24,483 bases of DNA from a virus: positions 1 to 24,483 of IMG/VR virus record IMGVR_UViG_3300046724_000343. One strand, 5' to 3'. The notes under the pieces are model-generated. The model ran no database searches, was not told where the DNA came from, and was given only the letters and a program-made list of their open reading frames with translations. This document shows, one piece after another, positions 1-19,807 of this stretch (position 1 is its first letter; each line of letters opens with the position of its first letter). The translations under genes and the position numbers were made by a program.

Positions 1-557
1 TGCGCGGCTGGGACCTGGCCTCGTCCGAGCAGAAGGACGGCAACGACCCGGACTGGACCGCCTGCGTCAAGATCGGCGTGATGCACGACGGGCGCTGGAT
101 CATCCTCCACGCCGACGCGTTCCGCGGCTCGCCCGCCGAGGTGAACCGTCGCATCCTCAACTACGCGCAGCAGGACGGCTACGAGAACACCACCAGCCTG
201 CCGAAAGACCCAGGCCAGGCCGGGGTCGCCCAGATCGTCGCGCTCACCCACATGCTGGCCGGCTATATCGTCGACTCATCGCCGGAGAGCGGCGACAAGG
301 TGACCCGGTTCGGCCCGTTTTCCTCGCAGGCCGAGGTCGGCAACATCATGGTGCTGCGCGGGCGGTGGAACGAGCGGTGGTTCACCGAACTCGAGAACTT
401 CCCGCCCGTGAACGGCCACGATGACGACGCCGACGCCACCTCGCGGGCCTACAACGCCGTGGCCCAGCTTCCGCCGATGCGGATCGACCCAGACGAGATG
501 CGCAAGCTGGGGATTCACATGCCGCCCGGCGCCAACCTTCCGTCGTTCCAGTTTTGA
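1..557 (+). CDS. terL: Terminase large subunit, C-terminal nuclease part (5' truncated)
   Basis: The reading frame is already open at base 3 and runs to TGA at 555-557, so only the C-terminal ~184 residues are present. They look like the RNase H-like nuclease domain of phage large terminases, which cuts concatemeric DNA during packaging at the portal. Visible acidic motifs are RGWDLASS near the left edge (first metal-binding Asp), PKDPGQAG about 70 residues later, and HDDDADATSRAY near the end, the usual place of the last Asp. The segment RGRWNERWFTELENFP just before that motif is also typical of this family. The ATPase domain lies upstream of the window. The portal gene starts 6 bases downstream, the canonical order. 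Internal ATG 78 is not the true start because the conserved motif lies upstream of it. Confidence 0.9.
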   Translation, partial: RGWDLASSEQKDGNDPDWTACVKIGVMHDGRWIILHADAFRGSPAEVNRRILNYAQQDGYENTTSLPKDPGQAGVAQIVALTHMLAGYIVDSSPESGDKVTRFGPFSSQAEVGNIMVLRGRWNERWFTELENFPPVNGHDDDADATSRAYNAVAQLPPMRIDPDEMRKLGIHMPPGANLPSFQF

Positions 558-563
558 GGTCGC

Positions 564-3500
564 ATGGCGCTCCTGACGAGCCTGTTCGGTGGTCTGCTGG
601 GCTTGCTCGCGCGTGACGCCGCGCGCCTGACTCCACCCCCGTCCGAGGCGCCGGCCGGGCCCACGCCGCCGCCGCCGATGGACCCGACGGCGATGTATCG
701 GGCGCTGATGGACCTGGGCCTCACCCCAGGCGAGACCGACCTCACGCCGTTCCGGCTCTACTCGACCCGCGAGGCGACGCCGGCCGACCAGACGCGCCTG
801 TTCCGTCCCGCCGCGCCGATGCCCGGCGTGGTGCCCGAGAGCGTCCGCCCGATGGCGATGGACGACCTCAACAACCCGATGGCCAACTTCGGCGGATCAG
901 GCTACGGCGCCGCGCTGACCGACGGGATGTACTGGCTGGGGTTCCCTTACCTCGCCGAACTGGCCCAGCGCACCGAATACCGGCGCATCAGCGAGACGAT
1001 CGCCAAGGACATGACGCGGCGCTGGTTCCGCCTGCAGGCCAAGGGCCAGGACGACAAATCCGACCGGATCGCCGAACTCGAAGACGCCATGAAGCGGCAT
1101 AAGCTGAAGGAGAAGTTCACGCTGCTGGCGCTGCTCGACGGCTTCTTCGGGCGCTCTCACCTCTACATCGACAACGGCCAGGGCGATGACCGCGACCTGA
1201 TGAAGCTGCCGCTGCCGGTCGATCCGCGCATGATCAAAAAGGGTGACCTAAAGGGCATCCGGGTGGTCGAGCCGATGTGGTGCTACCCGAACAATTACAA
1301 CGCCGCCGATCCGTTGCGGGAGGGCTTCTATCTGCCGCAGACGTGGTGGGTGATGGGGAAGGAAATCCATCGCACGCGGGTGCTGCCGTTCATCGGCCGC
1401 GAAATGCCGGACATGCTGAAGCCGGCCTATTCGTTCGCCGGGCTGGCGCTGTCGCAGATGGCCAAACCCTACGTGGACAACTGGCTGCGCACCCGTCAGT
1501 CGGTGTCCGATCTGGTGCACTCGTTCTCGACGCCGGTGCTGCAGACCAACATGGGCGCGGTGCTGAACTCGGGCGCGGCGGCGACGCTGGCGATGCGCGC
1601 CCAGATGTTCAATTACTTTCGCGACAACAACAACATGATGATCCTCGATAAGACCACCGAGGACTTCAAGAACGTGGCCACGCCGCTGGGCGCGATCGAC
1701 CACCTGCAGGCGCAGAGCCAGGAACACATGGCCTCGGCCGTGGGCATCCCGCTGGTGGTGCTGCTGGGTATCTCGCCGTCCGGGCTGAACGCCACGAGCG
1801 AGGGCGAGCTTCAGGTCTGGAGCCAGTTCATCCGGGCCCAGCAGGCCTCGTTCTTCGACGCCCACCTGGTGACCGTGCTGAACGTGTTGATGCTCGACCT
1901 GTGGGGCGAGATCGACGACGACATCACGCACGCCTGGGAACCGCTGCGCGAGATGAGCGAGGAGGAGGAGGCGACGGCGCGCAAGTCCGACGCCGACCTC
2001 GACGCCGTCTACGTCAACGCGGGCGTGCTCAGCCCGGACGAAATCCGTCAGAAGCTGGCCGGCGCGTCCGACAGCCCGTACCAGGGCCTCGACCTCACCA
2101 CGCCAGCGCCGACGCCCCCCGAGCAGGAACCAGATCCACTCGGCGGCGCGGGCGGCCCACCAGGGGGCGGTGTTCCTCCCTCCGGCTCCGGTGGGCCGCC
2201 GCCTGACGCCTCGGGGCTGTCCAAGCCCGCCGGGGGCTCACCCGCGCCGATCGCCAGCGGGCCCGGCAAGCTGGGGCCGGCCGGCTCGCCAAATCCCCCG
2301 GACCCGAACAAGGGCTCGCGCGACGGCAAACCCCAGACCGACGATGACAAGGCCGCCGCGCTGCCGGCTGGCGAGAGTCACGTCAAAGTCGTCACCCAAG
2401 ATCCCGACGCCAAGGTCCACGTCCACCTGGGCGAGGGCGACCGGGGCCACGTCCGGCTGGGCGCCGATGAGTTCAAGGAGGGCGACCACCCGCGCGGTGA
2501 GGGCGGGAAGTTCGGCCCCGGCGGCAACTCCGTTCATCCGGCCGGCAAGGAGCGGAAGTTCAAGGCCGCGCACGGCGCGAGCGAGGGGCGGAACGATCCG
2601 CTCACGCCGGAGGAAAAAGCGACCGCGCACGCGGCGCTGGAAAAGCTGACGGAGCGCGACCACCCCTGGGCCGACACCGACGAAGATCGGGCCAGTTACG
2701 GCAGGATCATCCACCCGTCGGATATCGGCTTCGGCAAGCCGGACACGATCGTGCTGGGCGGCGCCAAGAACCGTTCGCCGAAGTACGGGCCGGTGCGAGA
2801 CGTGCCGATCCACGCGATCAACTACGGGCAACCCTACGTGCCGAAGGAAGGCATCAAGGCCTACATCGAGAACCTCAACCACAACCCGGAACTGCCCGAG
2901 ATCGGCCACAACCGGGACACCGGCGAGCATTTCGTCATCAGCGGCCACACGCGGCTGTCCGCGCAGGCGCTCTCGGGGAGGCCGACGACACGGGCGCGCG
3001 TCTACGAGTTCGCGAACCGGCACACGGAAATGGGCGGCGTCAAGACGCTGATCCCGAACTCACGCTACCAGGTCATGCCGACCGCCGCGGACACGGCGCA
3101 GGCCGCCGACGAGTGGAACGAGTCCGACCACGATCGGGCGAAAAACGGCCAGTTCGGCGCTGGCGGCGGCGGCCACACGCGCAACGAGACCAGCGCGGAC
3201 GACCGGCCCGCGATGACCGAGGCGGGCCACCGGGCGAAGGAACTGGTGCCCGACGCGACGCACTTCACCAACCCGGCGCGGGCGAAGGCGATAGGCGATG
3301 GAAGTCACGACTTCTCGAAAAGCAGCACCAGGACCTGGCAGGGCGCTGGCCTCTATCTGTTCCCCGGCGACCATCCTGGCCGCGACAACTTCGGCGAGGC
3401 GAAGCTGCGCGTGAAGCCGGACCTTCGCAATCCGTTCATCGGCAACACGGCCGACGTCGAGAAGAAGGTCGACGAGCTTAAAAAGACGTTCCAGCCGCCG

Positions 3501-5945
3501 GTGTTCAGGCTGCCCGATGGCAGCACCATTTCCGGGCCGGACGGCGAGCCGCTGCGGGCATACACCGACACCGCCGGGCCGAACGCGGACCTGCGCGAGG
3601 CGTGGCTGAAGGCCGGGCACGACGGGATCATCGAGACCGGCGGCGACGGCAAGGCGCAGACGATCGCGGTGTTCCATCCGCACTCGCTGGGCGAGATCGA
3701 TGGCGCTGGCGGCGGCGGTGGCGGTGGCTCAGCCGCGCCGGCCCCGGAAGGCACCGAGGCGGCCACGTTCACGCACGACCCTGGGCATGAGGGCTGGCAG
3801 TTCGGCTCCGGCGTCGTGCCGCACAAGAAAAGCGACATCGTCGAGGAGACCCCGCTGCCACTCGCCAAACTGCACAGCGAGTTGAAGTCCAACAACTACA
3901 ACGCGAAGCCGGTTCAGGGCGTGCAAGACATTCCGGTGCGGGAACTGCACGCCTGGCAGGGGACCATCCAGCCCGACAAGCTGCGCCCGTTGGAGCCCGG
4001 CTATCCGCCGATCGAAGTCGCGAAGCTGGATGGCAAATACATCATCAGGAACGGCAATCACCGGGCTGTGTCGGGGTTCGTGCAGGGCGCGGATACGATC
4101 AAGGCCAACCTGACCGACTTCGACGATCCGAAGAACCACAAGTACCGCAAGGCGCCACCGGCGGCCGCGAAGGACGCCCTGGGCGGCGATGATCCCGACG
4201 AGGCCGACGGCGAGACAGCAACGGCGCCGGTCGACGACTACGTCGAACGTGTCCTGGCGGCCGACGCGGCCGAGTGGAAAGAGACGGATCACCCGCGCGA
4301 CAAGAGCGGCAAGTTCGGCTCCGGCGGCGGCGGTGGGGCGGCCACGGGCGGCGGCGAGACCGCGCCGGCCGCCGCTACCGAGCGGACCCGCGAGGCCGCC
4401 ACGCGCGTGCCTGACGCCGACAAGGCCTGGGTCGCGCGGCGGGGCTCGGCCAAGGCCATGAAGGCCTACGCCACCAAGGCGCTGGAGGAGGGCCACGACC
4501 CGGCCGCCGCCATCGCGAAGATCAAGGACCTCGCCGGCAAAGAGGTGCACGGCGCGGTCGCCGACTATGCCAACCAACTCATCGACCACATCGCCGCGGC
4601 GCACGGGATCGACGCCCACCAGCACGGCCGCGCGACCAAACGGGACGGCGGCGGTGGCGGGACACCCGAACCGGCCCCGCCGCCACCCGATCCCGACGCG
4701 CACAGGCGCGAGCAAGAGGCGCGCCTGCACGCGCATGTCACGAGCTTCGCCGCGACGGTGCCAGACGCGCCGGAGGCCTGGGTCGCGAAGCGGGCGTCCG
4801 CGCGGCAAATGAAGGCGCTGGTGACCAGGGCGCTGGAGGAGCACTCGCCGCCGCTCGAGACCATCGCGAAGCTGAAGCAACTCGCCGGTGGCGAACTGCA
4901 CGGCAAGGTCGAGCAGTACGCGAACCAGTTGATCGACCACATGGGCCAGGCGTGGCAGACGGATTTCTCGTCGCACCGGGCGGCCCGGCGGCGCCAGGAC
5001 GCGGCGCCGACGCCGCGGCCCCAGCCACAACCCCAGCCCCAGCCGAAGCCGTCACCGACGCCCGAGCCGGACAAGGGCAAACTACCTCAGAAGATCGGCG
5101 ACGTGATCAAGGAGCGCGGCCACAAGTGGATCGCGAGCGAGAAGGACTTCCATGAGCGGTCGTGGGCGCACGCCACGCCGGAACTGCTGGGGGCGATGCG
5201 GAACACCCTGCCGCTCACCCGCGTCAAATTCGAGGAGGGGGGCCGCGCGCATTACAACTACCCGCACGAAATCAAGATGGACAGCTTGAAGGACACGGGC
5301 ACCTGGCGGCACGAGTATGGCCACGCGATCGACTGGAACGGCGCCGGCTGGGGCGTCGGCCGGAACAACGCGTCGTACCGGGCGGACGGGGATCGCGCCC
5401 GCGAGGCCGACACGCTGATGGGGCAGATCAGGAGGTGGCAGTTCAAGAAAGGAGCAGGGCAAGGGTTGTCATACAAAACCAACGCCTATGACCTCGCCGA
5501 CGAAGCGGAGAAGGTCGGCCTGACCGAGGACGACCTGAAGGCGTTCGCCGGGCCGAGGCTCAAAGCGCAACAGGCGATCATGGAGGTGCTGGTCCACGGC
5601 GACCTCGCGCACGTCCCGGATGTCCAGCGGGATATAGACAAGTCCTACACCTTCGAGGGCCGCTACGACGAGGTGAGGGCCGTCGACGTCGACAACTCGC
5701 AGTTCCAGGATTTCATCGGCGCGATGACCAAGGAACGCTTCGGCAGCGGCCACGGGGTCGCGTATTACAATAAAGTCCCGGCCTTCCAGACCGCCGAGAT
5801 GTTCGCGCAATACGTCTCGCTCACCAGCAGCGCCAACGGCAAGGTCTACAAAAAGCTATTGAAAGCCATCGCGCCGAAGACCACTGATCACTTCGACGAT
5901 ATCCTCGCCGAGCGTGGAGGGGCGACGATCAAGAAAGGGGCGTGA
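564..5945 (+). CDS. Giant portal protein: DUF1073 portal fused to ParB-like, ART-like and zincin modules
   Basis: Starts at ATG 564, 6 bases after the terminase stop, with a GAGG-type ribosome site. 1793 residues, against about 400-550 for an ordinary DUF1073 portal. Residues 1-510 are portal-like: RRISETIAKDMTRRW near the start, the region around HRTRVLPFIGREMPDML, and SPSGLNATSEGELQVW. The portal forms the ring through which DNA enters and leaves the head. A Pro/Gly-rich linker (~511-630) follows, then ParB-like (~742-816), ART-like (~886-1047), second ParB-like (~1120-1189), two ~75-residue helical repeats (~1274-1352 and ~1392-1466), a Pro-Gln stretch (~1484-1502) and a metallopeptidase-like module with HEYGH at 1583-1587. 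A DHPR...G.FG.GG linker occurs at 635, 849 and 1236. No in-frame stop breaks the ORF. Databases may label the N-terminal family 'Acb1-like'; I see no 2H phosphoesterase motif pair. Portal call firm, tail modules moderate. Confidence 0.85.
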   Translation: MALLTSLFGGLLGLLARDAARLTPPPSEAPAGPTPPPPMDPTAMYRALMDLGLTPGETDLTPFRLYSTREATPADQTRLFRPAAPMPGVVPESVRPMAMDDLNNPMANFGGSGYGAALTDGMYWLGFPYLAELAQRTEYRRISETIAKDMTRRWFRLQAKGQDDKSDRIAELEDAMKRHKLKEKFTLLALLDGFFGRSHLYIDNGQGDDRDLMKLPLPVDPRMIKKGDLKGIRVVEPMWCYPNNYNAADPLREGFYLPQTWWVMGKEIHRTRVLPFIGREMPDMLKPAYSFAGLALSQMAKPYVDNWLRTRQSVSDLVHSFSTPVLQTNMGAVLNSGAAATLAMRAQMFNYFRDNNNMMILDKTTEDFKNVATPLGAIDHLQAQSQEHMASAVGIPLVVLLGISPSGLNATSEGELQVWSQFIRAQQASFFDAHLVTVLNVLMLDLWGEIDDDITHAWEPLREMSEEEEATARKSDADLDAVYVNAGVLSPDEIRQKLAGASDSPYQGLDLTTPAPTPPEQEPDPLGGAGGPPGGGVPPSGSGGPPPDASGLSKPAGGSPAPIASGPGKLGPAGSPNPPDPNKGSRDGKPQTDDDKAAALPAGESHVKVVTQDPDAKVHVHLGEGDRGHVRLGADEFKEGDHPRGEGGKFGPGGNSVHPAGKERKFKAAHGASEGRNDPLTPEEKATAHAALEKLTERDHPWADTDEDRASYGRIIHPSDIGFGKPDTIVLGGAKNRSPKYGPVRDVPIHAINYGQPYVPKEGIKAYIENLNHNPELPEIGHNRDTGEHFVISGHTRLSAQALSGRPTTRARVYEFANRHTEMGGVKTLIPNSRYQVMPTAADTAQAADEWNESDHDRAKNGQFGAGGGGHTRNETSADDRPAMTEAGHRAKELVPDATHFTNPARAKAIGDGSHDFSKSSTRTWQGAGLYLFPGDHPGRDNFGEAKLRVKPDLRNPFIGNTADVEKKVDELKKTFQPPVFRLPDGSTISGPDGEPLRAYTDTAGPNADLREAWLKAGHDGIIETGGDGKAQTIAVFHPHSLGEIDGAGGGGGGGSAAPAPEGTEAATFTHDPGHEGWQFGSGVVPHKKSDIVEETPLPLAKLHSELKSNNYNAKPVQGVQDIPVRELHAWQGTIQPDKLRPLEPGYPPIEVAKLDGKYIIRNGNHRAVSGFVQGADTIKANLTDFDDPKNHKYRKAPPAAAKDALGGDDPDEADGETATAPVDDYVERVLAADAAEWKETDHPRDKSGKFGSGGGGGAATGGGETAPAAATERTREAATRVPDADKAWVARRGSAKAMKAYATKALEEGHDPAAAIAKIKDLAGKEVHGAVADYANQLIDHIAAAHGIDAHQHGRATKRDGGGGGTPEPAPPPPDPDAHRREQEARLHAHVTSFAATVPDAPEAWVAKRASARQMKALVTRALEEHSPPLETIAKLKQLAGGELHGKVEQYANQLIDHMGQAWQTDFSSHRAARRRQDAAPTPRPQPQPQPQPKPSPTPEPDKGKLPQKIGDVIKERGHKWIASEKDFHERSWAHATPELLGAMRNTLPLTRVKFEEGGRAHYNYPHEIKMDSLKDTGTWRHEYGHAIDWNGAGWGVGRNNASYRADGDRAREADTLMGQIRRWQFKKGAGQGLSYKTNAYDLADEAEKVGLTEDDLKAFAGPRLKAQQAIMEVLVHGDLAHVPDVQRDIDKSYTFEGRYDEVRAVDVDNSQFQDFIGAMTKERFGSGHGVAYYNKVPAFQTAEMFAQYVSLTSSANGKVYKKLLKAIAPKTTDHFDDILAERGGATIKKGA
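2466..2525 (+). repeat. Inter-module linker, copy 1
   Basis: Residues 635-654 of the portal fusion read DEFKEGDHPRGEGGKFGPGG. This is the first of three copies of a linker with consensus xE(W/F)xExDHxRxxxGxFGxGG. It separates the proline-rich linker from the first ParB-like module. The Gly tail suggests a flexible hinge. Confidence 0.8.
2787..3011 (+). other. ParB/sulfiredoxin-like module 1 inside the portal fusion
   Basis: Residues ~742-816. The order VRDVPIHAINYGQPY, then a PELPEIG strand region, then VISGHTRLSAQALSG (from ~791) matches the ParB N-terminal fold, where a short 'I-x-G-H-x-R-x-x-A' motif lies in the nucleotide-binding pocket. Members act as CTPases, nucleases or kinases; which applies here cannot be told. 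Basis: motif reading plus family knowledge. Confidence 0.6.
3108..3173 (+). repeat. Inter-module linker, copy 2
   Basis: Residues 849-870, DEWNESDHDRAKNGQFGAGG plus further glycines. Same spacing of E, W, DH, R, G, F and GG as copies 1 and 3. It lies between the first ParB-like and the ART-like modules. Confidence 0.8.
3219..3704 (+). other. ADP-ribosyltransferase-like module inside the portal fusion
   Basis: Residues ~886-1047. The pattern THFTNPARAKAI (His900), TWQGAGLYLFPGDH (Tyr931), RVKPDLRNPFIG, AWLKAGHDGIIE and QTIAVFHPHSL resembles phage ART domains that run 'H-G-T ... GxGxYF ... NP ... GYDGvi ... VVFxPxxI'. His900, Tyr931 and Gln1032 or the nearby Glu are candidates for an H-Y-E/Q triad; this assignment is a guess. 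Such domains in injected phage proteins modify host targets with ADP-ribose from NAD. Confidence 0.55.
3921..4130 (+). other. ParB-like module 2 inside the portal fusion
   Basis: Residues ~1120-1189. VQDIPVRELHAWQGTIQPDK, then PPIEVAKLDGKYIIRNGNHR and a short VSGFVQGADTIKANL tail fit the ParB N-terminal fold: a DIPV strand, then a (D/N)GxHR motif near 1163-1167. It differs clearly from module 1, so it is an old duplication or an independent acquisition. Confidence 0.55.
4269..4337 (+). repeat. Inter-module linker, copy 3
   Basis: Residues 1236-1258, AEWKETDHPRDKSGKFGSGG plus further glycines. Third copy of the linker consensus, between the second ParB-like module and the tandem helical repeats. 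Confidence 0.8.
4383..4961 (+). repeat. Two tandem ~75-residue helical repeats in the portal fusion
   Basis: Copy A (~residues 1274-1352) and copy B (~1392-1466) share VPDAxxAWVAxRxSAxxMKA, then AIAKxKxLAGxExHG or its equivalent, then YANQLIDH. The YANQLIDH tyrosines are residues 1335 and 1452, an offset of 117 residues. Both copies look alpha-helical. I do not recognise the family; a DNA- or protein-binding role is possible but unsupported. Confidence 0.75.
5085..5942 (+). other. Zincin metallopeptidase-like C-terminal module of the portal fusion
   Basis: Residues ~1508-1793. TWRHEYGHAIDW carries the HExxH zinc motif at 1583-1587, and AEMFAQYVSL 158 residues later could supply the third ligand (Glu1745). 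This H-E-x-x-H plus distant 'E-x-F-A' layout is common in phage zincin-like domains. A Pro-Gln stretch precedes it. A protease at the end of a portal could process the portal itself, other head proteins or a host target. The fold call is fair; the substrate is unknown. Confidence 0.6.
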
Positions 5946-8058: not shown

Positions 8059-8385
8059 TTCATGGCTCCTTTCGGTGGTTGTTAGCACGTTAGACCGCCC
8101 CGGATCGCCCGGCCTACTGATCAAACGAGGGTTTGAAAGCGACCTCGGGTTCTGTATGGCCCGGACCCGGCCGAGCCGGCGAGTTGCACGATCCGAGGGC
8201 GCGCAACCCTGGCGAGTCCGAGCGGCCCGGTCTGACCGAAAAGTAAGTGAACGGCGCGGCGGGGGTCGGCCCGCCGACCCACGGCGTCGGAGGTCGACCC
8301 CCGCCTGGGGCCACGGCGGTCTCGCGCCCGCCGGCCCGTACCGTGCGAATAGCACGCTGGCCCGCGAAGCAGGAGACCCTTGCTC
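8059..8385. other. Gene-free interval between divergent genes
   Basis: About 327 bases without a convincing ORF, between the minus-strand gene and the lysozyme-like gene. It should hold promoters for both directions; I cannot assign -35/-10 boxes with confidence. It ends in AGGAG (8371-8375) for the gene at 8386. It contains overlapping inverted repeats at 8258-8305. No tRNA cloverleaf is seen. Confidence 0.5.
8258..8305. promoter_or_regulatory. Two mutually exclusive inverted repeats
   Basis: GGGTCGGC (8263-8270) is followed two bases later by its perfect complement GCCGACCC (8273-8280). The overlapping GGCGGGGGTCG (8258-8268) is the perfect complement of CGACCCCCGCC (8295-8305). Only one stem can form at a time, an attenuator- or operator-like layout about 80 bases ahead of the next gene. 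High GC raises the chance of coincidence. Confidence 0.4.
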
Positions 8386-8907
8386 ATGACACCCGATCAT
8401 CTACTGCGCGATGTGGTCGATCCCGCGCTGGCCTACATGAGCGCGACGCTCTCCGGTGACCCGTGCCCGTCGGTCGGCGATGATGCCCGCGTCGCGCTGC
8501 TCGCCATCGCCGGTCAGGAGTCCGGCTTCAAGGAGCGCCGCCAGATCGGCGGGCCCGCCAGATCCTATTGGCAATTCGAGAGCGGCGGCGGGGTCGCGGG
8601 GGTGATGGGTTTCCCGACCACGCGGCCGATGCTCGTGAAGCTGTGCGCCGGTCTCGACATTCCTTATGTCCGGGCGACGGTCTTCGAGGCGATGGCGTGG
8701 AACGATCGGCTCGGCTGCGCGATGGCGCGGTTTCTGCTCTACACCGACGCCGCCGCGCTGCCCGCCGTCGGCCAGCAAGACGCGATGTGGGATTACTATC
8801 TGCGGAACTGGCGGCCCGGCAAACCGCACCCCGAGGCGTGGCCGGCGAACTACCGGGCCGCGACGGCCGCCGTGGCCGCGTCCAGGGCCGACCGCCCGGT
8901 CGGGTAA
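8386..8907 (+). CDS. Lysozyme/transglycosylase-like protein
   Basis: 173 residues from ATG 8386, 10 bases after AGGAG at 8371-8375; TTG 8380 is a weaker alternative. LLAIAGQESGFKERR with Glu45, then GPARSYWQFESGGGV, resembles the 'A-x-x-x-E-S-G-F' and 'G-x-x-x-x-x-Q-F' motifs of lytic transglycosylases and related muramidases; MAWNDRLGCAMARFLLY and WDYYLRNWRPGKP follow. No signal peptide is seen. As an endolysin it would cleave cell-wall glycan at lysis; as a virion protein it would act during DNA entry. Its position before the MuF-like minor head gene suits either. Fold call moderate, role open. Confidence 0.5.
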   Translation: MTPDHLLRDVVDPALAYMSATLSGDPCPSVGDDARVALLAIAGQESGFKERRQIGGPARSYWQFESGGGVAGVMGFPTTRPMLVKLCAGLDIPYVRATVFEAMAWNDRLGCAMARFLLYTDAAALPAVGQQDAMWDYYLRNWRPGKPHPEAWPANYRAATAAVAASRADRPVG

Positions 8908-8913
8908 CGATCA

Positions 8914-9714
8914 ATGGCGCTCCCGCCCAGACCCCGCGTGCTGCCGCCGGTGCATCCCAACGCCGGGGTCGGCGCGGTCTACCGCACGCGGCTGTGGCGC
9001 GCGGTCGACGCGATGAACAATTCGCTCGACTACTGGCTGTCGCGGCGCTGGCGAGAGGAGCCGCGCGGGGCCAGCCGGATCATGGCGACGATGAAGGAAC
9101 TCGGCCGGCGCTGGCAGTCCAACTTCGACGAGATGGCCCCCGACATCGCCGGCCAGTTCACCGGCCGATCCGCGGACCACACCACGCAACGGATGGAGCG
9201 CCTGCTCGACGACGCCGGCTGGACGGTCAACTTCAAGGTCAGCCCACAAATCCAGACAATCATGAACTCGGCGATCGTGGAGAATGTCGGGCTTATTAAA
9301 TCGATCCCGGCGCAGCACCTTCAACGGATCGAGGGCGTCGTGATGCGCAACGTCCAGAAGGGCAACGACCTCGAGGCGCTGACGAAGGAATTGCACGAGA
9401 CGTTCGGCGCGCCTAAAGCTCGCGCCACGCTGATCGCGCGGGACCAGACCTTCAAATTGAACTCGGTGATCACCAAGGCCCGTCAGTCGCAGGCCGGAAT
9501 AAAACGCGCGGTCTGGATGCACAGCAACATCCGGGCACCCGGCCGTTTCCGCCCCGAGCATCTGGCGTTTTCCGACGGGCGGCACAGCCCTGGTGCGAAA
9601 GGCCCGATCTATGAAGTCGAGCAGGGCGCGTTCCTCGAGGGCAAGTGGACGTGGCCCGGCTTCGAAATCAACTGCCATTGCTCGTCGCGCCCGGTGATCG
9701 AGGGCTTTGAGTAA
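8914..9714 (+). CDS. Mu gpF/SPP1 gp7-like minor head protein
   Basis: 266 residues from ATG 8914, 6 bases after the previous stop. The C-terminal half has the phage Mu protein F pattern: IARDQTFKLNSVITKARQSQ, then AVWMHSNIRAPGRFRPEHL, then WPGFEINCHCSSRPVIEG, where the H-x-x-x-DGR and C-x-C elements are characteristic. The N-terminal half is helical, with basic and Trp-rich segments (LWRAVDAMNNSLDYWLSRRW). Family members bind the portal and a few copies enter the head. In many phages this protein sits directly after the portal; here about 3 kb of small genes intervene. No toxin domain is fused to it. Confidence 0.75.
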   Translation: MALPPRPRVLPPVHPNAGVGAVYRTRLWRAVDAMNNSLDYWLSRRWREEPRGASRIMATMKELGRRWQSNFDEMAPDIAGQFTGRSADHTTQRMERLLDDAGWTVNFKVSPQIQTIMNSAIVENVGLIKSIPAQHLQRIEGVVMRNVQKGNDLEALTKELHETFGAPKARATLIARDQTFKLNSVITKARQSQAGIKRAVWMHSNIRAPGRFRPEHLAFSDGRHSPGAKGPIYEVEQGAFLEGKWTWPGFEINCHCSSRPVIEGFE

Positions 9715-10806: not shown

Positions 10807-11009
10807 GCGATAATCCATTCATCGTTCGTGGGCCTGTCTTCAACGCCCACCCCACCCTCGCGGTGACGGACTGGCTGACGTTTTCGTGCGGCCTGCGCAT
10901 CAACGTGGCGACCGGCGAGGTGGTGATCCCGGACGGGCTGACCTTGCCCGAGGCCTCCCGCGCGTTCTGGGAAGGCCTCTCGCTCTACGCGCCGAGGCGG
11001 CCCGGATGA
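10803..11009 (+). CDS. Hypothetical protein
   Basis: 68 residues from GTG 10803, overlapping the previous stop (GTGA) and the next start (ATGA). The product (MSDNPFIVRGPVFNAHPTLA onward, with NVATGEVVIPDGLTLPEASRAFW) has no membrane span or recognised motif. It probably belongs to the same translation unit as the two-TM protein before it and the glycosyltransferase after it. Confidence 0.55.
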   Translation: MSDNPFIVRGPVFNAHPTLAVTDWLTFSCGLRINVATGEVVIPDGLTLPEASRAFWEGLSLYAPRRPG

Positions 11010-12109
11010 AACCCTGGGCTCTTGTGGTGAGGCTGGGCGGGATCGGCGACAACCTGATCGCGTCCTCGATCCTGCCGCTGCTCGCCGAGACCCACAACGT
11101 CGAGGTGATGGCGCAACGACCGCAACACGTCGTATTCGAAAACAATCCGCACGTCGCCAAACTGACCGTGCGCGAGCCCGGCGATCTGCCCGGCGACGGC
11201 AACCAATGGCAGGCGTTCTTCCGCCATCGCGGCGCCGAATACGACCGCTGGGTCAACCTCTCGCACAGTTGTGAAACGATGCTCGCGCTGGTGCCGGGGC
11301 AGACTCAATTCGACTGGCCCGCCTCGTGGCGACGCGCGTTTTGCGGCCGCAACTACTTAGAGTTCGTCCACGACATCGCCGAGGTGCGCCATGAGTTCAA
11401 TCCACGGTTCTTTCCGACCGAGGATGAAACGCGGCACGCCCGCCAGACGCTGGACAAGGTTCGTGGCGCTGGTGGCCGCCGTCATGTTGTCGGTGTGGCT
11501 GTCTCAGGTTCTCGCCTCGACAAAGTATGGCCGTATCTCCCTCTGCTTACAGCGAAGCTGGTCCGTGAACTGCCCGTCTCCGTCGTGATGTTCGGCGCCG
11601 AGGCCGACGTGGCGATGGCGATCCAGACGCAGGACTTCGTCAAAGAGTTCAACGGCTCCGTCGATGGCCTGCACGCGACCATGTCATCCGATCCGGCGGT
11701 GCCGCCCTGGCCGATCCGCCGCGCGCTGGCGACCCTTCAGCAGTGCGACGTGGTGATCACGCCCGATACCGGGCTCGCCTGGGGCGTGGCGATGGAGGCG
11801 ATGGCGAAGATCGTGCTGCTGAGCCACGCGAGCCCGGAGAACATCACGAAGCACTGGACCAACACGATCACGCTGCACGCCGATCCGAAACGAGTTCCGT
11901 GCTGGCCGTGCCACCAACTGCACGACACCATCGCGACTTGCAAAAAGGCCGAGAAAGCGAACGCAGCGGCCTGCATCGCCGATATCAGCCACGAGACCGT
12001 CCTCGGCCTGGTGAAACGACTGATGGACCCGATCGTCCTCGGCCTGGTGAAACGACTGATCTCCCTGGACCCGCGCGAGGCCGAGCCGCCGCGAGCGGCG
12101 GCCGACTGA
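11006..12109 (+). CDS. Glycosyltransferase family 9 (heptosyltransferase)-like protein
   Basis: 367 residues from ATG 11006, which overlaps the previous stop as ATGA; the frame is open upstream, but no earlier start is better. VVRLGGIGDNLIASSILPLL at the N-terminus is the 'R-x-G-x-I-G-D' strand-turn of GT9 enzymes such as ADP-heptose:LPS heptosyltransferases. VVGVAVSGSRLDKVWPYLPL and CDVVITPDTGLAWGVAMEAM are the C-terminal nucleotide-sugar half. A cysteine cluster (CWPCHQLH, then C further on) is unusual. It would transfer a sugar to host surface glycan or to a virion protein; adjacency to fibre genes favours one of these. The C-terminus carries a 36-base tandem duplication. Confidence 0.7.
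   Translation: MKPWALVVRLGGIGDNLIASSILPLLAETHNVEVMAQRPQHVVFENNPHVAKLTVREPGDLPGDGNQWQAFFRHRGAEYDRWVNLSHSCETMLALVPGQTQFDWPASWRRAFCGRNYLEFVHDIAEVRHEFNPRFFPTEDETRHARQTLDKVRGAGGRRHVVGVAVSGSRLDKVWPYLPLLTAKLVRELPVSVVMFGAEADVAMAIQTQDFVKEFNGSVDGLHATMSSDPAVPPWPIRRALATLQQCDVVITPDTGLAWGVAMEAMAKIVLLSHASPENITKHWTNTITLHADPKRVPCWPCHQLHDTIATCKKAEKANAAACIADISHETVLGLVKRLMDPIVLGLVKRLISLDPREAEPPRAAAD
11998..12060 (+). repeat. 36-base tandem duplication inside the glycosyltransferase gene
   Basis: A 27-base segment at 11998-12024 recurs exactly at 12034-12060, period 36 bases. It encodes VLGLVKRLMD then VLGLVKRLIS, adding 12 residues near the C-terminus. Perfect identity implies a recent slippage or duplication that kept the frame. 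Confidence 0.9.
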
Positions 12110-18304: not shown

Positions 18305-19807
18305 ATGCCATTCGACTGCATTCCGCTGGCGATGGACCGCTCGGTGCGCCGGTACGATCAGGACGGCCGGCTGCACGTCGCGGTCTCGCACCTGACCAAG
18401 GCGTGCGTGAACGGCTACCGCGGCAACGAGATTCCGGGCTTTCAGCAACTCGGCCTGAACCCCGACCAGACCTACATGCTGCTGCGCGATCCGAACGAAC
18501 TGCGGAGCGCGACGCCGACCTTCAACAACATCCCGGTGCTCGACCAGCACATCCCCGTCACCGCCGCCGACGAGCGGCGCGAGCGGGTGATCGGCTCGAC
18601 CGGCACCGACGCCGCGTGGCGCGCCCCGTATCTCGATAACTCGCTGGTGTTCTGGTCCGACCACGCCATCGCGATGATCGAATCGGGAGACATGCGGGAA
18701 CTGAGTTCGGCCTACCGCTACGTGCCGGTGATGACGCCGGGCGTCTTCGAGGGCGTCCGCTACGACGGCGTGATGACCCAGATCAAAGCCAACCACATCG
18801 CGCTGGTCGAGGCCGGACGCGCGGGTGACGACGTCGTCGTGATGGATGCCAAACCAAAGGAGAAACCCATGCGCCTGTCGCCTTACGCGGCCTATCTCGC
18901 GGGATCGACCGTTGCTTACCTGACGCCGCTGCTGGCGCAGGATCAGAAGCTGCCCGATATGCACAAGCTGTTCCTCGGTCTCGACCGCAAGAACAGCAAG
19001 CGGAAGGTGCCCGAGATCGTGGCGGGCATCACGCGCGGGCTGAAGGACGTCAAGCTAGCCCAGGACGCCGAGGTGCATATCCACGAGCACCTGGACGGCG
19101 CCGGGGCCGGCGCGCCGCCCGACGACGTGGCCCCCGGCGATCCCAACGGAGCGGCCGGCGTCGTGCCAGGCCAGGAGAAGGAAGACCCCGCCGCCAACGG
19201 TGGCGCGGGCGACGACGACCTCGCGGCCAAGGTCCAGCAGTTGTTGCAGGGCCAGATCGACGACAACGACCTCGCGATCATCCTGCACGCGCTCAAAGAG
19301 GTGAAGGCGCCCGACCTCGGCAATGGCGGCGGTGATCCGCCCGCCAACGGCAACGGCGGCGGCGATCAAGATCCCGACGACGACAAGAAGAACCCGCTCG
19401 CCGCGACCGACGAGGACGACGTCGCCGACAAAATCGACACAGCCAGAAAGGACACGCCCGCGATGGATAAGCGGTTCAAGGTCGCGATGGACGCGGCCAT
19501 CGCCAAAGCGGTGAAGGAGAACACCGAGAAGCTCAATGCCCGCGACGAGGCCGCGCGGTTCGTCCGCCCGTGGGTCGGTGACATCGCCGTCGCGATGGAC
19601 AGCGCCGCCGAGGTCTACAAGTTCGCGCTCGAGCAGTCGGGCGAGGACGTCACCGGCATCCACCCGTCCGCCTTCAAGGCCCTGCTCACCCGAATCCCCA
19701 GGCCCGGCGAGGAGCAGCAGCGGCCGTCGCCGATGGCGATGGATAAGGCCGGCACCAGCAAATACCTGGAACGATTCCCCAACGCCAACCGGCTTCGGGC
19801 CCACTAA
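18305..19807 (+). CDS. DUF2213-type prohead protease with C-terminal scaffold
   Basis: 500 residues from ATG 18305. The N-terminal ~180 residues match DUF2213: VFWSDHAIAMIESGDMRELS, SSAYRYVPV with Ser134/Ser135 as candidate nucleophiles, YDGVMTQIKANHIALVEAGR with His164. The protease would mature the prohead. The remainder is acidic and Gly/Asn/Asp-rich (GNGGGDPPANGNGGGDQDPD) with helical ends, typical of a scaffold. A strong internal start at 18869 may make the scaffold alone. The cement and capsid genes follow. Confidence 0.75.
   Translation: MPFDCIPLAMDRSVRRYDQDGRLHVAVSHLTKACVNGYRGNEIPGFQQLGLNPDQTYMLLRDPNELRSATPTFNNIPVLDQHIPVTAADERRERVIGSTGTDAAWRAPYLDNSLVFWSDHAIAMIESGDMRELSSAYRYVPVMTPGVFEGVRYDGVMTQIKANHIALVEAGRAGDDVVVMDAKPKEKPMRLSPYAAYLAGSTVAYLTPLLAQDQKLPDMHKLFLGLDRKNSKRKVPEIVAGITRGLKDVKLAQDAEVHIHEHLDGAGAGAPPDDVAPGDPNGAAGVVPGQEKEDPAANGGAGDDDLAAKVQQLLQGQIDDNDLAIILHALKEVKAPDLGNGGGDPPANGNGGGDQDPDDDKKNPLAATDEDDVADKIDTARKDTPAMDKRFKVAMDAAIAKAVKENTEKLNARDEAARFVRPWVGDIAVAMDSAAEVYKFALEQSGEDVTGIHPSAFKALLTRIPRPGEEQQRPSPMAMDKAGTSKYLERFPNANRLRAH
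18869..19807 (+). CDS. Probable internal start giving a scaffold-only protein
   Basis: ATG 18869 is in frame with the protease gene (Met189). It is preceded by AAAGGAG at 18856-18862, 6 bases away. It would yield a 312-residue product starting MRLSPYAAYLAGSTVAYLTP and containing the acidic scaffold without the protease. This parallels lambda C/Nu3, where the scaffold is an internal in-frame start of the protease gene. The SD-like run is encoded by Lys-Glu codons, so coincidence is possible. Confidence 0.5.
   Translation: MRLSPYAAYLAGSTVAYLTPLLAQDQKLPDMHKLFLGLDRKNSKRKVPEIVAGITRGLKDVKLAQDAEVHIHEHLDGAGAGAPPDDVAPGDPNGAAGVVPGQEKEDPAANGGAGDDDLAAKVQQLLQGQIDDNDLAIILHALKEVKAPDLGNGGGDPPANGNGGGDQDPDDDKKNPLAATDEDDVADKIDTARKDTPAMDKRFKVAMDAAIAKAVKENTEKLNARDEAARFVRPWVGDIAVAMDSAAEVYKFALEQSGEDVTGIHPSAFKALLTRIPRPGEEQQRPSPMAMDKAGTSKYLERFPNANRLRAH

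Follow-up and report, generated by a model that had tools for sequence, protein, structure and literature searches.

A giant phage portal protein with several cargo cassettes, each opened by a conserved peptide tag

We find that a stretch of viral DNA of 24,483 nucleotides (IMG/VR record IMGVR_UViG_3300046724_000343, positions 1 to 24,483; hereafter the window) encodes a giant portal protein in which three cassettes follow the portal domain, each opened by a conserved peptide tag, in the order portal-[tag-ParB-like]-[tag-ART-like-ParB-like]-[tag-two helical repeats-zincin]. To our knowledge, how a phage chooses its proteins for injection is known in only a few systems (T4, P1, N4 and T7), and the finding of tagged modules that differ among related phages suggests a general way of loading effector proteins into particles. 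Portal-effector fusions are already known (Iyer 2017, 2022), as are effector fusions to MuF proteins and capsid proteases; what appears to be new here is the multi-cassette portal together with its conserved tag, neither of which we found described in open-access papers, and the tag is the part most worth attention.

Results

A single frame joins a portal to about 1,280 residues of non-portal modules

The open reading frame at 564–5945 (plus strand) starts with ATG, runs for 1,793 residues with no internal stop and directly follows a terminase large subunit gene, of which the window has the C-terminal part (3–557, plus strand; PF17289, 2.6e-16). Third-position GC stays between 0.82 and 0.92 across the portal, the linker and every module, the behaviour expected for coding sequence. 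A contig from another metagenome (IMG/VR 3300046536_000664) aligns to the window over 13,943 bases at 99.79% identity, with 27 mismatches and 2 gaps, and shows zero differences within the frame; because the junction is identical in this second metagenome a misassembly is very unlikely, and we reject the joining of two genes by misassembly on this ground. An earlier sequence-only reading of this DNA had proposed one uninterrupted 1793-residue frame, and both the absence of internal stops and the second contig bear it out.

The N-terminal 510 residues (564–2093, plus strand) are a portal of the DUF1073/Phage_portal_3 family, with residues 129–481 matching PF06381 over profile positions 3–356 of 357 (E = 4e-83); the product also matches PHROG portal families, terminase and MuF genes adjoin, and portals 77–86% identical to this domain are present in IMG/VR. 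A low-complexity Pro/Gly linker with a conserved stretch, HVKVVTQDPDAKVHVHLGEGDRGHVRLGAD, follows at residues 511–635 (2094–2468, plus strand) and is common to five relatives (L004, L236, L237, L239 and L248). Neither Pfam nor PHROG confidently names a family behind about residue 530. No relatives of the tail were found among 50,697 phage records, module-by-module scans of IMG/VR returned the sister contig only, and sequence searches of the PDB with the window's modules gave no relevant chain.

The neighbouring MuF head protein (8914–9714, plus strand; PF04233, 1.9e-10) is a separate protein of 266 residues with its MuF domain at 137–257 and no space for cargo, as the sequence-only reading had said, and so does not have the toxin C-terminal to a MuF domain that defines the MuF polymorphic toxins. 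That the portal has taken over the cargo role of MuF, as was also proposed, does not follow, since a cargo-free MuF is no proof and relatives use DUF2213 (L003, L036) or MuF (L006) as the carrier. The window encodes a DUF2213 protein of its own (18305–19807, plus strand; PF09979, 6.7e-42), a family that is an alternative cargo carrier in relatives; a six-frame search of the window found no tag in it. Two other frames lie nearby: a 175-residue product just 5' of MuF (8380–8907) appears by eye lytic transglycosylase-like (GQESGFKERRQ...SYWQFE) and has no Pfam match, and a 407-residue product (10886–12109), between MuF and the later structural genes, has weak similarity to glycosyltransferase family 9 (heptosyltransferase).

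Three tags mark the module boundaries

The tag reads [FW]xE[SE][DE]HPRDxxG[KR]F followed by glycines. A six-frame pattern search of the window reveals three copies, all in the 564–5945 protein and all at module boundaries, and one further match, on the minus strand, that is unrelated and without the flanking consensus. Tag 1 (EFKEGDHPRGEGGKFGPGG, 2469–2528) stands where homology with relative portals stops, there or at most about 35 residues beyond; tag 2 (EWNESDHDRAKNGQFGAGGGG, 3111–3173) is degenerate, with HDR for HPR; and tag 3 (EWKETDHPRDKSGKFGSGGGG, 4269–4331) opens the last cassette, all three on the plus strand. These tags, like the duplicated helical module described below, were absent from the sequence-only reading.

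Behind tag 1 lies a ParB-like module with a GHTRLSA box (about residues 737–813; 2772–3002, plus strand), which hhalign aligns to the ParB_N profile with a score of 34.8 against a shuffle maximum of 18.6. The second cassette begins with an ART-like module (THFTN ... GAGLYLF ... GHDGII; 3252–3701, plus strand) that is 48% identical to a cassette of L036 and is thus a real mobile domain. It matches no Pfam or PHROG family profile, and hhalign to ART-PolyVal (PF18760) is no better than shuffles, a result by which we reject membership of that family; since every profile test is negative the ART name is tentative, and the assignment is a weak one at the level of motifs. A second ParB-like module (GNHRAVSG; 3921–4127, plus strand) scores 24.3 in hhalign against a shuffle maximum of 14.8 and weakly matches phrog_17560, a family without assigned function. 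The ParB assignments are weak overall, with module 1 supported by its profile alignment and module 2 weaker.

In the third cassette a helical module is present twice (SA(K/R)xMKAxxxxAL...YANQLIDH; 4380–4955, plus strand), with homologues in L003 and also in L237, L240 and L248, and a zincin-like metallopeptidase module (5076–5942, plus strand), with HEYGH at 5310–5324, completes the cassette. The zincin is 50%, 37% and 30% identical to homologues in L003, L036 and L006; HEYGHAID, which reads HEYGHAIDW in the window, is kept in all four homologues, and the C-terminal AE/SE is kept as well. Structure prediction of the tail, proposed earlier as a check, was of no help for the ART and ParB assignments: AlphaFold2 gives the helical modules a pLDDT of about 80, the ParB-ART-ParB region (two-row alignment) 31.5 with nothing usable, and the zincin cassette 57.8, for which Foldseek returns no significant fold match, the best annotated viral match being a MuF-domain protein at a non-significant E = 0.035.

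Among the modules that the sequence-only reading had named, ParB-like 1 and the zincin are thus upheld by profile score and by homologues, respectively, and ParB-like 2 and the ART-like module are weak. Polyvalent proteins carry at least two distinct effector-like domains on one polypeptide, and here we find at least four modules, the first ParB-like module and the zincin supported, the ART-like and second ParB-like modules tentative. None of them matches a Pfam or PHROG family of known function; cassettes of relatives match the named polyvalent families LPD3, PBECR, InPase and ADPrib_exo_Tox. The proposal of a portal with a polyvalent-protein-like tail is further supported by related portals, which bear ADPrib_exo_Tox, NUDIX, GNAT and Zeta toxin.

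Cassettes are exchanged among portals and between carriers

Selection of relatives by the portal core alone, from the best 80 in IMG/VR, gave 66 distinct usable portals, the window's sister contig included, which are close relatives and not a random draw of all portals. Tags are present in none of the 40 portals in this set with tails shorter than 130 residues and in 17 of the 26 with longer tails, the other nine having no recognisable tag; the long tails hold 28 tags, with 0.34 expected from shuffled tails. Further portals of the length for which a search had been proposed do exist: portals of 1,000–1,979 residues occur in several relatives, with giants at 1,461–1,979, and the long-tailed portal of the window is not a one-off. 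The largest of these (L268:4276-10212; 1,979 residues) has five tag-like sites and a Zeta toxin (5.3e-38).

The portals of L004, L236, L237, L239 and L248, which are 65–78% identical, align through the linker to about residue 650–684 and then carry different cargo; contig ends cut the portals of L235 and L238 off before this divergence point. Recognised families are found in this position, including NUDIX, GNAT and ADPrib_exo_Tox on the L248 portal, Zeta toxin on L298 as on L268, and ADPrib_exo_Tox on L244, L245 and L272. On the L271 portal, the GNAT region shares 60% identity with a segment of the DarB-like antirestriction proteins found in Serratia phage Parlo and phages like it.

The same cassettes also occur on other carriers. 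A 1,375-residue protein (L036:2986-7110) is organized as DUF2213-[tag-ART-like]-[tag-TopoIB]-[tag-X-repeat-zincin], its ART-like and zincin modules being the homologues of the window's modules given above, and the portal of that phage, of about 523 residues, is cargo-free; L003 has the repeats and zincin on a DUF2213-like carrier, and L006 has a related zincin on MuF. Because the same cassettes are found on portal, DUF2213 and MuF, the carrier is interchangeable and tag plus cassette are the units. These comparisons indicate that what follows the portal domain is a slot for exchangeable cargo, which would explain the giant portals.

Cultured phages have this organization too. Gp4 of Pseudomonas syringae phage Orisa03 (L317:2268-4379, PP179327.1; 704 residues), annotated as a hypothetical protein, is a portal-tag-ADPrib_exo_Tox fusion (3.1e-20), and Xanthomonas phage PhiXhv-5 has a DUF1073-type portal with the tag. 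The PHROG head-maturation-protease family phrog_595 aligns to the C-terminal part of Orisa03 gp4 (residues 435–682), as would be expected if another carrier bore the same cassette.

The tag is conserved as protein across bacterial phyla

A DNA pattern for [DE]HPR[DE]xxGxFG run on IMG/VR returned 68 stretches, with 55 distinct in-frame tags, in which positions not imposed by the search are strongly conserved: F or W at -4 in 55 of 55, E at -2 in 54 and G at +12 in 53. A second form of the pattern, applied to genome contigs, found at least 100 tagged proteins, among the matches listed in Clostridia, Gastranaerophilales, Treponema, Methylobacterium, Elusimicrobia, Actinobacteria, Planctomycetes, Bacteroidetes and others; position -4 is F or W in all 109 matches listed, though Leu, Cys and stop codons were allowed. 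A short-peptide tblastn search in phages gave no match. At the invariant His, Pro, Arg, Gly and Phe the full set of synonymous codons is in use, showing that selection acts on the protein, and a DNA-level repeat or recombination site is for this reason not favoured as the cause of the conservation. Conservation at unsearched positions and the excess of tags over shuffled portal tails rule out a chance motif.

The tag is shared by phages and prophages of many phyla. N-terminal of the tags, Pfam identifies portal families most often (Phage_portal_3 in 21 of the 36 viral proteins and in 9 of the 26 from genomes, among the matches listed), and also DUF2213 and MuF. C-terminal of them are ADPrib_exo_Tox, TopoIB, NUDIX, DUF2213, LPD3, PBECR, Acb1, InPase, LPD13, Zeta toxin, GNAT, 2H, papain-fold toxin, lysozyme, M23, Ntox50, ART-PolyVal and ParB_N. 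The Acb1 anti-CBASS domain (1.7e-44) lies behind a tag at an IMG/VR locus, which places an anti-CBASS enzyme among the tagged, possibly virion-borne cargo. The alphaproteobacterial genome L230 encodes, in a frame of about 1,030 residues, a DUF1073 portal whose tag, NPYHDQKGRFTHKEGG, is degenerate and which has an additional C-terminal domain.

Free cargo proteins also bear the tag at their N-terminus, and it lies within 30 residues of the start in 60 of the 105 distinct tagged genome proteins among the matches listed. Capsid-targeting sequences are short peptides N-terminal on free cargo, as the tag is in these genome proteins; in the window it is internal. Several free tagged genes are scattered through Gastranaerophilales genomes, and a MuF gene is present in none of the five genomes examined, so that the tag may not be virion-specific: either an unrecognised phage-like particle uses the tags there, or the tag has another role. 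In Gastranaerophilales (Melainabacteria) MAGs (L098, L105, L108, L112, L115, L122, L131, L139 and L140) free proteins begin M-x-x-WNEADHPRDEEGKFTYKNGG and continue with papain-fold toxin, M23, lysozyme, SAA or LPD3, with up to five such proteins per genome, on different contigs.

Discussion

The uninterrupted frame, its tags, the exchange of cassettes from portal to portal and between portal and DUF2213, and the recognised effector families of relatives lead us to favour, with modest confidence, a reading in which the portal is a carrier for early-infection effectors, the cassettes being loaded into the head with the tag as a targeting or processing signal and the cargo then freed and ejected. 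From these observations we infer location in the head, cleavage, ejection and activity for the window's own modules. The C-terminal crown or barrel of the portal points into the head, as established for P22/SPP1-type portals, so the cargo would sit inside the capsid and not, as the sequence-only reading had considered, be displayed at the DNA exit. Portals form rings of twelve, and up to twelve copies of the three cassettes would enter the procapsid with the ring. The tag most likely behaves like a capsid-targeting and processing signal, which at the N-terminus of free cargo would bring that cargo into the head and which stands at each junction of portal- or DUF2213-borne cargo; that it loads cargo, marks it for release or does both is suggested by these positions and by analogy with the capsid-targeting sequences of T4 and P1, where the N-terminal 30 residues of P1 DarB are enough for capsid targeting (PMC9024508). 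To exit with the DNA the cargo must come off the portal, and the cut would probably fall at or near the tags, with either the prohead protease or the zincin module that this phage itself encodes as the enzyme; in an Orisa03-type portal fusion the site would be DADFDENKHPRSDDGKFGSN. A precedent is P1 DdrB, which is processed prior to packaging (PMC5512222). The freed ParB-like, ART-like, helical repeat and zincin modules would then be ejected to act on the new host, as the cargo families of relatives suggest.

An alternative is that the tag is a cleavage site only, cut by the prohead protease (DUF2213) during maturation, with packaging achieved by covalent fusion to the portal or DUF2213. Cargo on the portal ring is not ejectable uncut, a DUF2213 protein is encoded in the window and itself bears cargo in L003 and L036, and every cassette is set apart by tags; a separator has little purpose, however, within the first 30 residues of a free protein, where the tag lies in those 60 of the 105 listed genome proteins, and we regard this explanation as unlikely, though one to be kept in mind.

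We consider it improbable that the tail remains attached to the portal and serves within the virion as an internal core or as an element of assembly or DNA arrangement, with the enzymatic modules as worn-out passengers. Such a role would fit the low profile scores of the ParB-like and ART-like modules, the duplication of the helical modules and the estimated mass of twelve tails, roughly 1.6 MDa, on the scale of known internal cores, but a shared structural role would not permit wholly different cargo among portals 65–78% identical, the cargo of relatives consists of recognised enzymes and toxins, and the HEYGH motif of the zincin is intact. Very improbable, in our judgement, is that the modules, as exchanged cassettes of polymorphic toxins carried by a prophage, are expressed in the lysogen against competitors or other phages and are not injected from the virion: the cargo behind tags does include papain-fold toxin, Ntox50, Zeta toxin and ART, and temperate phages are known to carry MuF polymorphic toxins (PMC5576092), yet the modules are attached to late structural proteins, we identified no immunity gene, and TopoIB, NUDIX, InPase and Acb1 cargo suit early infection better than killing.

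A wider proposal is that tailed phages use the tag as a general signal for virion loading, one not described before. At the N-terminus of free proteins it would bring unrelated effectors into heads, or it would mark their release from portal, DUF2213 or MuF, and with it injected effectors could be found across bacterial phyla by sequence alone; we advance this proposal tentatively, as possible but somewhat doubtful. If true, a conserved tag on different carriers in many phyla would allow injected effectors to be listed from sequence and the packaging signal to be probed, and the contents of the cargo slot include anti-defence enzymes, with a relative of Acb1 behind the tag, as well as toxins.

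Parts of this architecture have precedents. Iyer 2017 (PMC5512222) describes fusions of portal domains to PBECR, 2H and InPase, and we found no tag, linker, short motif or packaging signal described in the available text. The polyvalent proteins treated there resemble the window's protein in their many unrelated effector-like domains per polypeptide, their metallopeptidase and their late-gene setting; the portal of the window differs in having several cassettes, each opened by a conserved peptide tag. Portal and MuF fusions to ART and Nudix domains are also published (PMC9503650), and portal-MuF fusions are present in Microbacterium phages. The portal-Nudix protein of Burkholderia phage Bcep1, like the fusions of PMC9503650, has a single enzyme behind the portal, one domain only in contrast to the window, and we saw no tag in the Bcep1 tail. 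MuF polymorphic toxins (Jamet et al. 2017, PMC5576092) share a variable C-terminal effector on a head protein encoded beside the portal gene, but MuF is the carrier there, whereas here it is the portal and MuF is cargo-free. Orisa03 gp4 and the PhiXhv-5 portal combine a DUF1073-type portal with the tag, in Orisa03 with ADPrib_exo_Tox, and have one cassette each where the window has three; they are annotated only as hypothetical protein or portal protein. The capsid-targeting sequences of the phage T4 internal proteins and P1 DarB (PMC9024508) are likewise short N-terminal peptides that bring cargo into the head, and the tag described here, a putative signal known from sequence, differs from them in being strongly conserved across phyla and in occurring inside fusions as well.
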